Part shown: positions 57,555-62,349 of the stretch, piece after piece
Layout: each line of letters begins with the position of its first letter
Position numbering within the stretch: the first letter of the stretch is position 1
Assembly (NCBI RefSeq): GCF_000710615.1
Contig: NZ_JDTH01000002.1
Coordinates: forward strand, 302,082-366,081
Length of the DNA stretch: 64,000 nucleotides
Reading direction: 5' to 3'
From: Haladaptatus cibarius D43
Lineage (GTDB): Archaea > Halobacteriota > Halobacteria > Halobacteriales > Haladaptataceae
Translations under genes and position numbers: made by a program
The notes under the pieces: generated by a model
What the model was told of the DNA's origin: nothing
The model's database searches: none
The model's input: only the letters and a program-made list of their open reading frames with translations

Positions 57555-59036
57555 ATGAAAGACGAAAACACGCGACATCCGATGAATCGACGCAAGTTCG
57601 ATGCGACACTCCCCAACAACGGGGGCGAATCGGACGGTATCGACGTGAGTGCGACCGGCGAGTTCCAGTTCGACCAAGTGGTCACGCGGGGGGACACCAC
57701 GGTTTCGCGGAGCGTCGAATGGTCGTTCGAATGTTCCGAAACGAGCGGCGACGTCTCCGAATCGGACGCAGAATCCGAATCGACGGACGACGAGCGCGCC
57801 GCCGCTCGTGAGGACGTAAAGCGATTCGTCTCCGACGGTGGCTTCGATTCGGGGCCGGATTCCAAACCAAATTCGAAAGCGGGGCGGATGGCACCCGACG
57901 GCGGTGTGGAAGACCGCGATAGTTCGTTCGAAACTGGACGTGCGCCGGCGACGCCGAAGAGCGGAGAAGAGCCGAAAACGAGAGCGGAACTCGCAGACGA
58001 CTCGTCCGCGAACGAGTCGCCGACGAGAGATTCGTCGAGCTTCTCGGGACGAACTGCATTGGACGCCGACGCGGACACCGTCCGCGCCCGCTGGTACGCG
58101 CAGGTCGGCGGTCCGGTCGAAACCGCGCCCATCGTCCGAGATGGGTCGGTGTACGTCGGCACCGAAAACGGATTCGTCTGCAATATCGACCACCGCGACG
58201 GCGTGAGCAACTGGCTGTTTCAAGCGTCCAACGCGGTCGGAACCCCCGGCGTCGAAAACGGCCTCACCTACGTCGGCGACCGCAGTGGGAACCTATTCGC
58301 GCTCGATTCCGCTAGCGGGGCGCGCGAATGGCGATTTGAAACCGACGCCGGGCTCGAAGTCTCCCCGCAACTCCTCGGCGACGACCTCTACGTCGCGGCC
58401 CGAGACGGACAGGTGTTCAAACTCGACGCCGGAACCGGCGAAGAACGACTTTCGTTCCGCAGCCCCGCGCGGGCGCTCACGTCGCTCCGAATCGCGCGCG
58501 ATACCCTGTACGCGACCGGCCTCGACGGCGGCCTCTTCGCCCACGACGTGACCGACGGAAGCGAGCAGTTCCGCTTTGCTCCCTCGCTCGCAGTCGCTGG
58601 CGCGCCGGAAGTCGTGGACGACACGGCCTACGTCGGAACCGTCGATGGTGACCGCGTGTACGCTCTCGACGCCGAAACCGGCGAAACGAAGTGGCGCTTC
58701 CGAACGAACGCAGGAATCTGGTCGTCACCAGTCGCCGTGAGCGGCATCGTCTACGTCGGCTGTGCCGACGGAAACGTCTACGCGCTGGACGCCCGCGAGG
58801 GAACCGTCAGGTGGCGTGTGCAGACTGGTGCGCGCGTCTGGGGGTCGCCCGTTCTCACCAACGAACTGGTGTACGTCGCAAACGACGACGGGATGGTGTT
58901 CGCGCTCGACCGCGCCGACGGCCACGTTCGCTGGCAGTTTAGCGCACAGGACGCCCTCGTCGCCCCGCCAGCAATCGGACGCGATGGCGTCTACGTCGGC
59001 GACGTGGCGGGAACGGTGTACGCCCTGCCGCAGTAA
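57555..59036 (+). CDS. PQQ-like beta-propeller protein with acidic N-terminal half
   Basis: A 493-residue protein. Residues 1-175 are low-complexity and acidic (Ser/Asp/Glu runs). The rest has eight blades marked by repeats such as VYVGTENGFVCNIDHRDG, YVGDRSGNLFALDSASG, YVGCADGNVYALDAREG and YVANDDGMVFALDRADG. There is no evident signal peptide. The PQQ-like fold is used for quinoprotein enzymes and for protein scaffolds such as BamB; no PQQ ligands are obvious, so a structural role is possible. Confidence 0.75.
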   Translation: MKDENTRHPMNRRKFDATLPNNGGESDGIDVSATGEFQFDQVVTRGDTTVSRSVEWSFECSETSGDVSESDAESESTDDERAAAREDVKRFVSDGGFDSGPDSKPNSKAGRMAPDGGVEDRDSSFETGRAPATPKSGEEPKTRAELADDSSANESPTRDSSSFSGRTALDADADTVRARWYAQVGGPVETAPIVRDGSVYVGTENGFVCNIDHRDGVSNWLFQASNAVGTPGVENGLTYVGDRSGNLFALDSASGAREWRFETDAGLEVSPQLLGDDLYVAARDGQVFKLDAGTGEERLSFRSPARALTSLRIARDTLYATGLDGGLFAHDVTDGSEQFRFAPSLAVAGAPEVVDDTAYVGTVDGDRVYALDAETGETKWRFRTNAGIWSSPVAVSGIVYVGCADGNVYALDAREGTVRWRVQTGARVWGSPVLTNELVYVANDDGMVFALDRADGHVRWQFSAQDALVAPPAIGRDGVYVGDVAGTVYALPQ

Positions 59037-59258: not shown

Positions 59259-60533
59259 ATGTCATCAACTGGGAAACAGAAAGAAGAGGAACCGGAGACG
59301 GCGGCAGAGACAGCACGGCGACAGCTTGAACGTGCCGCGGCACACCTCGATGTGGACCGTGGAATCATCGAGCGATTGAAACACCCCGACCAAGTTCATC
59401 GTGTGTCGGTCCCGCTCGAGCGAGACGACGGCGAAACGGACGTTTTCACCGGCTACCGCGCCCAGCACGATAGCGTGCGCGGCCCGTTCAAAGGCGGCAT
59501 GCGCTACCATCCCGGCGTGACCGAGGAGGAGTGTACCGGTCTGTCGATGTGGATGACGTGGAAATGCGCCGTCATGAATCTCCCGTTCGGCGGCGCGAAA
59601 GGCGGTATCGTCGTGAATCCGAAAGAACTGAGCAGCGAAGAAAAAGAACGCCTCACGCGACGGTTCGCCGAGGAACTTCGCGACTTCATCGGCCCGATGC
59701 ACGACATTCCTGCCCCGGACATGGGAACCGACGCGCAGACGATGGCGTGGTTCATGGACGCCTACTCGATGCAGGAGGGGGAAACCCAACCCGGCGTCGT
59801 CACAGGCAAGCCACCGGTCGTCGGCGGTTCCTACGGCCGTGAAGAGTCGCCCGGACGCTCCGTGGCCATCATCACCCGCGAGGCGTGTGACTACTACGAC
59901 TACCCGCTCGAAGATACGTCGGTCGCCATCCAAGGATTCGGGAGCGTCGGTGCAAACGCCGCCCTCGCCCTCCACGAATGGGGCGCAAACGTCGTCGCCG
60001 TCTCCGACGTGAACGGCGCAATTTACGACCCCGACGGATTGAACATTGACGAAATTCCGACCCACGAGGAAGAACCGGAAGCAGTCACGACGTTCGACGC
60101 GCCACAACACGTTTCGAACGACGAACTCCTCGAACTGGACGTTGACGTGCTCATTCCGGCCGCAATCGGCAACGTTCTCACCGAGTCGAACGCCCACGAG
60201 GTCAAAGCCGACATCGTCGTCGAAGGGGCGAACGGCCCGACGACGACGACGGCAGACGAAATCATGAAGAAGCGCGGCATCAACGTCATTCCGGACATCC
60301 TCGCCAACGCGGGCGGCGTGACGGTGTCGTACTTCGAATGGTTGCAAGACATCAACCGACGCCAGTGGTCGCTCGAAAGAGTGAACGAGGAACTCGAATC
60401 CGAGATGCTAGACGCGTGGAACGACGTTCGTGCCGAAGTCGAAGAGCGCGACGTGACGTGGCGTGACGCTGCCTACATCGTCGGCTTGTCGCGTATCGCG
60501 GAAGCGCATCAGGTCCGCGGACTCTGGCCATAG
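59259..60533 (+). CDS. gdhB: Glutamate dehydrogenase (first copy)
   Basis: A 424-residue GDH. It begins [20 protein letters not shown] and has [30 protein letters not shown] with the catalytic Lys, [19 protein letters not shown] and [20 protein letters not shown] (nucleotide site). It interconverts glutamate and 2-oxoglutarate; which cofactor is not decided. A second copy lies at 62443; the two differ strongly in their central helices, so they are not recent duplicates. Confidence 0.9.
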
Positions 60534-60593: not shown

Positions 60594-60833
60594 TTAGCAG
60601 TAACAACACTGACAGGTACAGCGGTTACAGCCGTCCGGTTCGAAACAGCAGTCTTCGGGATTCACGTCCGCTTCTTCGACGGACATCGTGACTCGTTCGC
60701 CCTGTTCGTTCAGTACCGAGACGTTCGACACGTCGTCGAGTGATGGTCGTTCAGTCGCGCTGGCGGTTGCTGTCATTCCGAATGCCAGTGCGCTCGCCGA
60801 TGCCGCGTTCTTGAGTAGGTTGCGTCGGTTCAT
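60594..60833 (-). CDS. Tiny exported Cys-rich peptide (precursor-like)
   Basis: A 79-residue peptide. Residues 1-26 form an RR-containing signal (MNRRNLLKNAASASALAFGM then TATASA), then an acidic segment (SLDDVSNVSVLNEQGE) and a Cys-packed end DCCFEPDGCNRCTCQCCYC with eight cysteines in the last 18 residues. A small propeptide plus Cys core suggests a disulfide-rich secreted toxin, bacteriocin or metal-binding peptide. No modification enzyme or immunity gene is obvious nearby. AT-rich DNA at 60845-60890 contains TATA-like boxes. Confidence 0.6.
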   Translation of the reverse strand: MNRRNLLKNAASASALAFGMTATASATERPSLDDVSNVSVLNEQGERVTMSVEEADVNPEDCCFEPDGCNRCTCQCCYC

Positions 60834-60960
60834 ATGCACCGACGTATTTATACACCGATGGCATAAAAATTTTCTAGAAGTGTCTAGAATAAAAACACGT
60901 GGCTAACGTGTGTAGCTGAAGAGTAACGACGGTATTGTGGTTTACTTCTTGCAATCAGAT

Positions 60961-61161
60961 TCAATCGCGTTTCGAAAAGTTGCTTTCGAATGCGACGCCG
61001 AACACGACTCCGAGTGCCACTCCGACCGCGAGATTATCCATCGCCACGCCGATTGCGACGCCCAGACCGATACCGAGGCCCATACCGGCACCCGATTGTG
61101 TCCCGTCCTCGCCCTCTTCGCCATCGGTTCCGGGGTTGTTCGTATTTGCAGTTCGAACCAT
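60961..61161 (-). CDS. Small glycine-zipper membrane peptide (copy 1)
   Basis: A 66-residue peptide. An acidic Asn/Gly-rich N-terminus (MVRTANTNNPGTDGEEGEDG) precedes two Gly-zipper helices, GMGLGIGLGVAIGVAMDNLA and VGVALGVVFGVAFES, with GxxxG spacing. There is no Sec signal. It is a tandem duplicate of the gene at 61225, including similar upstream DNA (GAAACAGCTATCGTT against GAACAGTTATGTTCG, both leading to AAGTATGGTTCGAAC-type starts). Confidence 0.6.
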   Translation of the reverse strand: MVRTANTNNPGTDGEEGEDGTQSGAGMGLGIGLGVAIGVAMDNLAVGVALGVVFGVAFESNFSKRD

Positions 61162-61224: not shown

Positions 61225-61422
61225 TCATCGGTTCGACAACCCGGCACCGATTGCGACACCGACTCCCATTCCAATTGCTATTCCAAGGGCAAGGTTGTCC
61301 ATCGCAACGCCGAGTGCGGTGCCGATGCCAGCACCGAGCGCGATACCGACACCCATCATTTGTCCGTCTTCGCTATCCGAGTCGTCGTTGCCGTTCCCGT
61401 TAGTATCAGCAGTTCGAACCAT
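61225..61422 (-). CDS. Small glycine-zipper membrane peptide (copy 2)
   Basis: A 65-residue peptide related to copy 1: MVRTADTNGNGNDDSDSEDG, then GVGIALGAGIGTALGVAMDN and LALGIAIGMGVGVAIGAGLS. The shared core is GVAMDNLA(L/V)G(I/V)A. GxxxG helices can insert in membranes and dimerise, as in two-peptide bacteriocins, but many benign Gly-zipper proteins exist. It is divergent from the CitE gene. Confidence 0.6.
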   Translation of the reverse strand: MVRTADTNGNGNDDSDSEDGQMMGVGIALGAGIGTALGVAMDNLALGIAIGMGVGVAIGAGLSNR

Positions 61423-61494
61423 ACTCACTCATTGACGGAACCGAACATAACTGTTCCCGGTGGGTTGAAATCGCGCCTCCACGTCACCTCGCAT

Positions 61495-62349
61495 ATGCTA
61501 CGACGAAGCGTCATGTTCACGCCGGGTGACCGTCCCGAGATGATGCGCAAAGCGCCCGACGCGGGGGCAGACGTAATCGTATTCGATTTGGAAGATGCGG
61601 TCGCACCAGAGCGAAAGGACGAGGCCCGAGAGGCGATTTGTGACGTACTTACCGACCCTGATTTCGATCCCGATTGTGAGGTCTGTGTCCGCGTTAATCC
61701 GGCAGGTGTCACCGCGGACGACGACCTGCGAGGAATCGCGGTAGGGGCCGACGCGCTCGATTCGGTCATGCTCCCGAAAACGGGATCTGCGGACGACGTG
61801 GAAACGCTCTCCCGTCTGCTCTCCGAACACGATTGTGACGTTCCGGTTCTCGCGCTGGTCGAAACCGCCCGCGGTGTGCTCAACGCGGGCGAAATTGGCG
61901 CTGAACCGGCAACCGACGCGCTCGTGTTCGGTGCCGAAGACCTTTCTGCTGACATCGGCGCGACCCGAACCGACGAGGGAACCGAGGTGCTCTACGCCCG
62001 CGAACACGTCGTGTTGGCCGCGAGCGCAACCGGTGTGGACGCCATCGACACAGTTTACACCGATTTCGGGGACAGCGAAGGCCTATCCGAGGAAACCGAG
62101 TTCGCCATCCAACTCGGCTACGACGGGAAGATGGCGATTCATCCGGCGCAGGTGTCGCCTATCAACGATGCGTTCACGCCCGATTCGAAACAGGTCGAGT
62201 GGGCGGAAACAGTGCTGTCGGCGAAGGCCGAGGCTGACGCCGAAGGACGCGGCGTCTTTCAGGTCGATGGGGAGATGATTGATGCGCCGCTCATCGCGCA
62301 GGCCGAGCGCATTCTGGAATACGCGCACGCTGACGGATCTGCCGAGTAG
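61495..62349 (+). CDS. citE: HpcH/HpaI aldolase (CitE-like lyase)
   Basis: A 284-residue enzyme of the citrate lyase beta-like family: VMFTPGDRPEMMRKAPDAGA, DVIVFDLEDAVAPERKDEAR, VRVNPAGVTADDDLRGIAVG, and LVFGAEDLSADIG plus KMAIHPAQV late. Family members cleave or form malyl- or citramalyl-CoA types of bonds. In haloarchaea CitE-like enzymes serve as beta-methylmalyl-CoA lyases or malyl-CoA hydrolases of the methylaspartate cycle; that role would fit the two GDH genes here, but is inference. Confidence 0.8.
   Translation: MLRRSVMFTPGDRPEMMRKAPDAGADVIVFDLEDAVAPERKDEAREAICDVLTDPDFDPDCEVCVRVNPAGVTADDDLRGIAVGADALDSVMLPKTGSADDVETLSRLLSEHDCDVPVLALVETARGVLNAGEIGAEPATDALVFGAEDLSADIGATRTDEGTEVLYAREHVVLAASATGVDAIDTVYTDFGDSEGLSEETEFAIQLGYDGKMAIHPAQVSPINDAFTPDSKQVEWAETVLSAKAEADAEGRGVFQVDGEMIDAPLIAQAERILEYAHADGSAE

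Follow-up and report, generated by a model that had tools for sequence, protein, structure and literature searches.

Defensin- and conotoxin-like peptides have a conserved signal and pro-region followed by a variable cysteine tail, an even number of cysteines, and genes that occur in clusters. Among the haloarchaea, microhalocin C8 (HalC8) is a peptide of 76 amino acids with 10 cysteines that is exported by the Tat pathway, and its precursor carries a long immunity part. HalC8 is released from the C-terminus of this longer precursor, and over 17 halocins have been reported (PMC12893001). In Haloferax mediterranei, the halolysin HlyR4 cleaves the secreted precursors HalH4 and HFX_0892 to yield antagonistic peptides; cleavage of HalH4 frees its C-terminal part, and HFX_0892 is also processed by a Haladaptatus halolysin (PMC12893001). 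Halolysins are made in late log phase, and the cis- and trans-acting factors for secreted haloarchaeal enzymes have been called unclear (PMC6085418).

The locus compared with these systems lies in a 64,000-nucleotide stretch of the Haladaptatus cibarius D43 genome, the whole of which is called the window here. It encodes a short precursor (Table 1) that reads MNRRNLLKNAASASALAFGMTATASA, TERPSLDDVSNVSVLNEQGERVTMSVEEADVNPED and CCFEPDGCNRCTCQCCYC in order, with inferred boundaries between the parts. The last part, CCFEPDGCNRCTCQCCYC, is an 18-residue tail that holds eight cysteines, one of them the final residue of the protein, with one threonine and no serine; the mature part is acidic, with a pI of about 4. 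Among the 916 stop-to-stop frames of at least 40 residues in the window, no other contained eight cysteines per 18 residues, the runner-up having five. The translation agrees with the original prediction, which had described 79 residues, an RR signal, an acidic spacer and eight cysteines within the last 18 residues, ending on a cysteine. That prediction had also proposed a Tat signal. An RR motif, a hydrophobic stretch and an AxA-type cleavage site are present by eye (NRRNLLK...ATASA), and R3 and R4 were invariant in all 10 aligned sequences, but the curated Tat models stayed below their cut-offs, TIGR01409 scoring the protein at 13.6 bits against 16.7; the motif stands, the models do not back it, and the signal is called Tat-like.

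Table 1. Features of the peptide gene, its promoter and its conserved neighbours (window coordinates)
Feature	Position	Strand	Details
Peptide precursor gene	60594..60833	minus	79 aa; stop codon 60594-60596; based on translation and orthologues
Twin-arginine signal, residues 1-26 (MNRRNLLK...TATASA)	60756..60833	minus	Based on sequence; R3, R4, A24 and A26 invariant in orthologues
Acidic middle region, residues 27-61 (35 residues)	60651..60755	minus	V38, S39, V40, G45, E46, R47 and V48 invariant in orthologues
Cysteine-rich tail, residues 62-79, CCxxxxxCxxCxCxCCxC	60597..60650	minus	Based on sequence, orthologue alignment and parity count
Promoter core CTAGAAAATTTTTAT (BRE-like + TATA-like)	60863..60877	minus	29 nt upstream of ATG; sole match in the window, 0.01 expected
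Semi-palindrome TTCTAGAAGTGTCTAGAA, double CTAG element	60872..60889	.	Sole match to the double pattern in the window's genome
HpcH/HpaI (CitE-like) lyase gene	61495..62349	plus	Conserved divergent neighbour of the peptide gene
PQQ-type beta-propeller gene	57555..59036	plus	Conserved locus neighbour
Glutamate dehydrogenase gene	59259..60533	plus	Conserved locus neighbour

The window's genome has a single copy of the peptide gene. A search of 28 genomes of the host's taxonomic family found full-length orthologues (47-49% identity) in four genomes of another genus, Halorussus, one of them Halorussus aquaticus XZYJ18. In these orthologues all eight cysteines are kept, with a spacing that differs by one residue, and the genes sit by the same neighbours as in the window. 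When named genomes were searched, the single protein gave no match and the orthologue alignment gave one, Halorussus aquaticus. A lack of homologues would, by the terms of the original prediction, have spoken against it; homologues with conserved cysteine spacing were found. Judged by its sequence relatives, the ORF is a genuine gene, because the homologues keep both frame and cysteines and dN/dS was well below 1 among the four orthologues (dS 0.22-0.54, dN 0.02-0.12, the window gene lying outside this computation). Close pairs of family genes are, by such substitution counts, under purifying selection. In one pair (L060/L061), the tail had three amino-acid and no silent changes and the remainder two amino-acid and ten silent changes, tiny numbers that hint at faster-changing tails.

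Weaker matches led to 20 regions, which were scanned for an RR signal together with at least 5 cysteines in the last 35 residues. Besides one chance ORF (MPPGPYR..., L049/L186), removed by hand from all counts, this layout was found in 30 genes, or 31 including that of the window. Adding a gene at L121 gave 32 members, all joined in one component by blastp, and two more from a genome in a different family of the same order (G035) brought the total to 34. One member (L051 8149) was kept despite having KR instead of a strict RR; L012, which has eight tail cysteines, a cysteine in the signal and no ATG start, and the truncated L015 were excluded from the 34. Members were found in 11 of 18 Halorussus genomes, one of nine from the window's genus and none of one from a third genus, in addition to G035. 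A subfamily profile matched 10 of 392 genomes sampled from the order and none of 392 in a phylum sample, the latter showing little, as the same profile misses the window gene in its own genome. Matches to a second profile (A1) in 252 of 392 genomes of the order were discounted as relatives, since among the matches listed outside taxonomic family f1 nearly all cover the Tat-like N-terminus alone.

The window protein, an orthologue and a further relative all stayed under the cut-off of every Pfam and NCBIfam model, as did 12 mature parts of a subfamily, which gave one match to DUF5812 (E 0.023). The best match among PDB sequences had an E-value of 0.49. Plasmid sequences contained no match to the window protein or to a 16-cysteine relative, and viral contigs contained no match. 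The Pfam, NCBIfam and PDB sequence searches bear out the original remark that a known family signature is absent, and the literature covered, mainly titles and abstract openings of open-access papers, gave no account of this cysteine-rich peptide family. By its sequence, the window peptide belongs to an unnamed, unannotated family of Tat-type precursors with even cysteine numbers, nearly all from Halorussus.

Across this family, the signal and middle region were recognisably conserved and the tails were variable, with lengths of 17-49 residues counted from the first cysteine and 23 cysteine-spacing patterns among the 34 members. The number of cysteines was even in every member (6, 8, 10, 12, 14 or 16), evenness being no criterion of the scan, versus 38 of 60 other acidic proteins with 6-16 cysteines; in 27 of the 34, a cysteine was the final residue. 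Cysteines thus appear to have been gained and lost in pairs, which favours disulfides, and it is highly probable that the family peptides are exported and that their cysteines pair. The main rival is that the window peptide is a secreted metallothionein-like molecule, whose CC, CxC and CxCC motifs would be loaded with Zn, Cu or an iron-sulfur centre in the cytoplasm before folded export and would serve to capture or detoxify metals outside the cell. The dense CxC and CC spacing of the tail fits metal binding, the Tat pathway commonly transports folded cofactor proteins, and one double CTAG site outside the family precedes a ZnuA-type (zinc uptake) gene (L181). However, metallothionein models in Pfam and NCBIfam were unmatched at E-values up to 1, there were no metal genes among the neighbours scanned, and the even cysteine number of all members, whatever their spacing pattern, is expected for disulfides and unneeded for metal sites. 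Metal binding is considered rather unlikely. The original prediction had offered both a disulfide-rich secreted peptide and a metal cluster, and the constant parity across so many spacings supports the former and fits the latter less well.

The motif in the middle region, VSV....GERV in the orthologues and roughly VVRDGxxV in a subfamily, was predicted to form a beta-hairpin in two separate models, one of the window protein (VSVL..GERV, strands 37-41 and 47-51) and one of the subfamily. In the AlphaFold2 model of the window protein, the block mean pLDDT was 71-86 from residue 31 on. Because the middle and the tail were modelled at similar confidence, the two may form a single mini-protein, in which case the middle would not be a pro-domain. 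Such a self-contained, non-killing secreted mini-protein might protect the producing cell by inhibiting its halolysins, or might act as a signal between cells, and a promoter element common to halolysin genes, described below, would suit it. Yet so much variation in the tails would not be needed to inhibit conserved halolysins, and the gene is absent from eight sister species, each of which has at least four halolysin-type genes (the window's genome has four), which makes this explanation improbable. Halolysin-type genes also occur in long tandem arrays, with up to 13 matches per genome (e.g. G018:C1:1658928-1672135). Foldseek found no match to the window model at an E-value of 0.001 or better, and VIA-align 2 found none at Z of 2 or more; with the subfamily model, VIA-align 2 matched an intein (best Z 4.5, rmsd 3.9, 51 residues), which was taken as noise. 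These negative results are not proof of a new fold.

Pfam assignments placed the peptide gene between a glutamate dehydrogenase and a CitE-type lyase, with the PQQ propeller, a MaoC/mesaconyl-CoA hydratase-like gene and a carboxyl transferase also nearby. Several Halorussus genomes have the same block with at least one peptide gene and with the glutamate dehydrogenase moved, and the remaining family members are found at unrelated genomic sites. A role linked to the adjacent metabolic genes was rejected because of these other locations, and carriage as mobile-element cargo was rejected because the locus is syntenic. All eight sister genomes of the window's genus lack the peptide gene but retain the dehydrogenase and the lyase, with one or two small ORFs rich in glycine. 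In the closest sister, whose lyase is 96% identical, the roughly 350 nt that contain the gene and its promoter are replaced by some 100 nt of unrelated sequence. In other words, the gene has a fixed site at which it is either present or missing, and either loss in the sisters or gain through recombination could have produced the pattern. The small glycine-rich ORFs themselves (window positions 60961-61161 and 61225-61428, minus strand) are paralogous, membrane-like and without a Pfam match, and one or both are present in the eight sisters.

A patchily distributed gene could also be a decaying, non-functional leftover. The gene is the sole copy in its genome and is missing from the eight sisters, one copy in G035 has an in-frame stop, and in G025 a truncated, decaying copy with its 8-cysteine tail intact lies next to the lyase gene (L015:1500-1587, minus strand). 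The window copy, however, is intact, with its promoter and all eight cysteines, and its orthologues are under purifying selection, so that decay is a very improbable account of it. Equally improbable is a RiPP precursor, in which enzymes from other loci, of the lanthionine, sactionine or azoline kind, would act on a variable cysteine core behind a conserved leader. The leader-core arrangement is of this form, and lanthipeptide production is known from one Halorussus species (archalan; cited in PMC12893001). Against this, an N-terminal RR signal would be unusual as a RiPP leader, the cysteine-rich tail has only its one threonine for lanthionines, and a modification enzyme was absent both from five neighbours scanned with Pfam and from the recurrent flanking genes. 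The original statement that biosynthetic partners are absent holds for the flanks read, where no modification enzyme recurred; no immunity gene was identified.

In three Halorussus genomes, a gene for a pyridine nucleotide-disulfide (thioredoxin-reductase-like) oxidoreductase (L059:4773-5789, L060:5774-6796 and L061:5660-6682) follows the peptide gene immediately, in the same orientation; both of the copies that were read (L059 and L060) contain a CLHC motif. This enzyme could be a cytoplasmic disulfide maker that oxidises the peptide cysteines ahead of export; the three genes are counted once because they form a single orthologous group.

Upstream of the window peptide gene, TTCTAGACACTTCTAGAA leads into AAAATTTTTATG, and the promoter core is common to family members. 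CTAG is rare in the window (27 observed vs 74 expected). Ahead of the TATA-like box and within 100 nt of the start, CTAG was present in 23 of 31 members, mostly 42-57 nt upstream, versus 11 of 154 other acidic ORFs in the same regions (Fisher 1e-14) and one of 16 other Tat-like genes (8e-6; 27 loci supplied, 16 genes passing filters). The AT content of the family promoters exceeds that of the background (58% vs 41%); in 1000 shuffles of the same upstream sequences, CTAG was found in at most 17 of 31. The double element occurred at eight places in the 28 whole genomes, five of them before peptide genes, including the window's, and the other three before a Tat halolysin, some distance before a Tat M23 protein, and at a site with no evident gene. 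Nine double elements were found in 364 genomes of other families, and Tat-like genes stood behind two of the five that had an ORF. In two genomes of another family (L179 and L180; L180:1560-2168), the double element precedes a 203-residue cysteine-containing protein (EACNCDVACQC).

The single CTAGA element occurred at 108 places in the 28 genomes, of which 73 distinct contexts were read, double-element loci included; most of the unread sites are second or later ones in genomes of the window's genus. An acidic ORF began 10-60 nt downstream of 29 sites, and 18 of these 29 ORFs were Tat-like: seven family peptides, seven halolysins, a GH18 chitinase-type enzyme, an amidase_2 enzyme and two of no assigned type. 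CTAGA occurs in other AT-rich promoters as well: the remaining 11 sites lead into genes not called Tat-like. With the scrambled control GTACA, for which 29 of 75 sites were read, two of 13 ORFs were Tat-like (p = 0.007), one of them a halolysin. The halolysin share among CTAGA genes is inflated by the abundance of halolysin genes in these genomes. Of 52 RR-type upstream regions taken at halolysin loci, a few with doubtful starts, 25 contained CTAG. Both halolysin promoters read in the window's genome (L217) lack CTAG, which leaves co-regulation with halolysins unproven there. Shared regulation of the peptide family with secreted enzymes nevertheless appears likely from these promoter comparisons. 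The literature covered, again mainly titles and abstract openings of open-access papers, described no CTAG operator for secreted haloarchaeal enzymes. Several Halorussus halolysin promoters (L220, L221, L222 and L232) have a CTAG-free variant, about TAAGAAAAATTCATTA, at the same place. The Tat-type M23 peptidase, amidase_2 and GH18 genes behind CTAGA (L101:1640-2371, L139:479-1078 and L084:292-1473) encode wall-cutting enzymes in archaea that lack peptidoglycan; archaeal peptidoglycan hydrolases, including some with M23 domains, kill bacteria (PMC12352652).

The reading preferred here, tentatively and at just under an even chance, is that the 79-residue product is a precursor, co-expressed with hydrolases, of a halocin-like secreted peptide rich in disulfides, and that a halolysin frees its tail. 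The gene would be turned on alongside secreted hydrolases, probably late in growth, through the CTAG-type operator beside the TATA box. The RR signal would direct the precursor to the Tat pathway, the cysteine core possibly having folded beforehand, and signal peptidase would cut off the signal. The conserved acidic middle region would then serve as a pro-domain, and activity would reside in the four-disulfide tail of 18 residues, which an extracellular subtilase (halolysin) might hypothetically liberate to act as a halocin-like antagonist of other microbes. We infer the antimicrobial role indirectly, from tail variability, patchy distribution and a promoter held in common with secreted hydrolases. 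The acidic mature part is unlike cationic antimicrobial peptides, which counts against an antagonist, and the chances that the tail acts against other microbes seem evenly balanced. Its release by a halolysin, suggested by the Haloferax precursors, is possible but less probable. More doubtful still is a rapidly diversifying arsenal, in Halorussus and its relatives, of Tat-exported, disulfide-knotted, toxin-like peptides in which interchangeable cysteine tails sit on an unchanging signal and pro-region; a CTAG operator would co-express them with secreted subtilases, chitinase and enzymes that cut cell walls, and the subtilases would release the tails outside the cell.

Comparison with described systems shows both likenesses and differences. 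The sptA halolysin promoter of Natrinema sp. J7-2 also has semi-palindromes right before the TATA box, one of which (TTCTTN10AAGAA) spans the BRE, and is under growth-phase control, but its core sequence differs and CTAG is absent from the paper's main text (PMC6085418). A shared CTAG element would offer a handle on how secreted haloarchaeal enzymes are switched on. HalH4 and HFX_0892 (HmHapP), the substrates of HlyR4, are likewise secreted haloarchaeal precursors from a genome with halolysins; a cysteine-rich tail is described for neither in that account, and they are set beside the window peptide by description only (PMC12893001). HalC8 is similar in being a small C-terminal peptide from a longer exported haloarchaeal precursor, but identity with it was rejected because the whole window precursor has 79 residues and eight cysteines and no immunity part. 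Metallothioneins share the very high cysteine content and the CxC and CC pairs; unlike them, the window peptide is predicted to be exported, matches no family, and has relatives whose cysteine parity favours disulfides. Secreted disulfide-rich peptides are a known kind; what is new is this unannotated family with variable tails, whose function is putative. Known archaeal antimicrobial peptides are few; a coherent family with so many kinds of tail and a common promoter would supply ready material for tests of archaeal warfare and would exemplify Tat export of disulfide-rich peptides. Defensins and conotoxins have the same layout by analogy, a sequence relation being neither found nor expected, and they are exported by Sec, whereas the window family is Tat-type and archaeal; the arsenal described above, if real, would give archaea their own equivalent of defensins or conotoxins, folded ahead of export.
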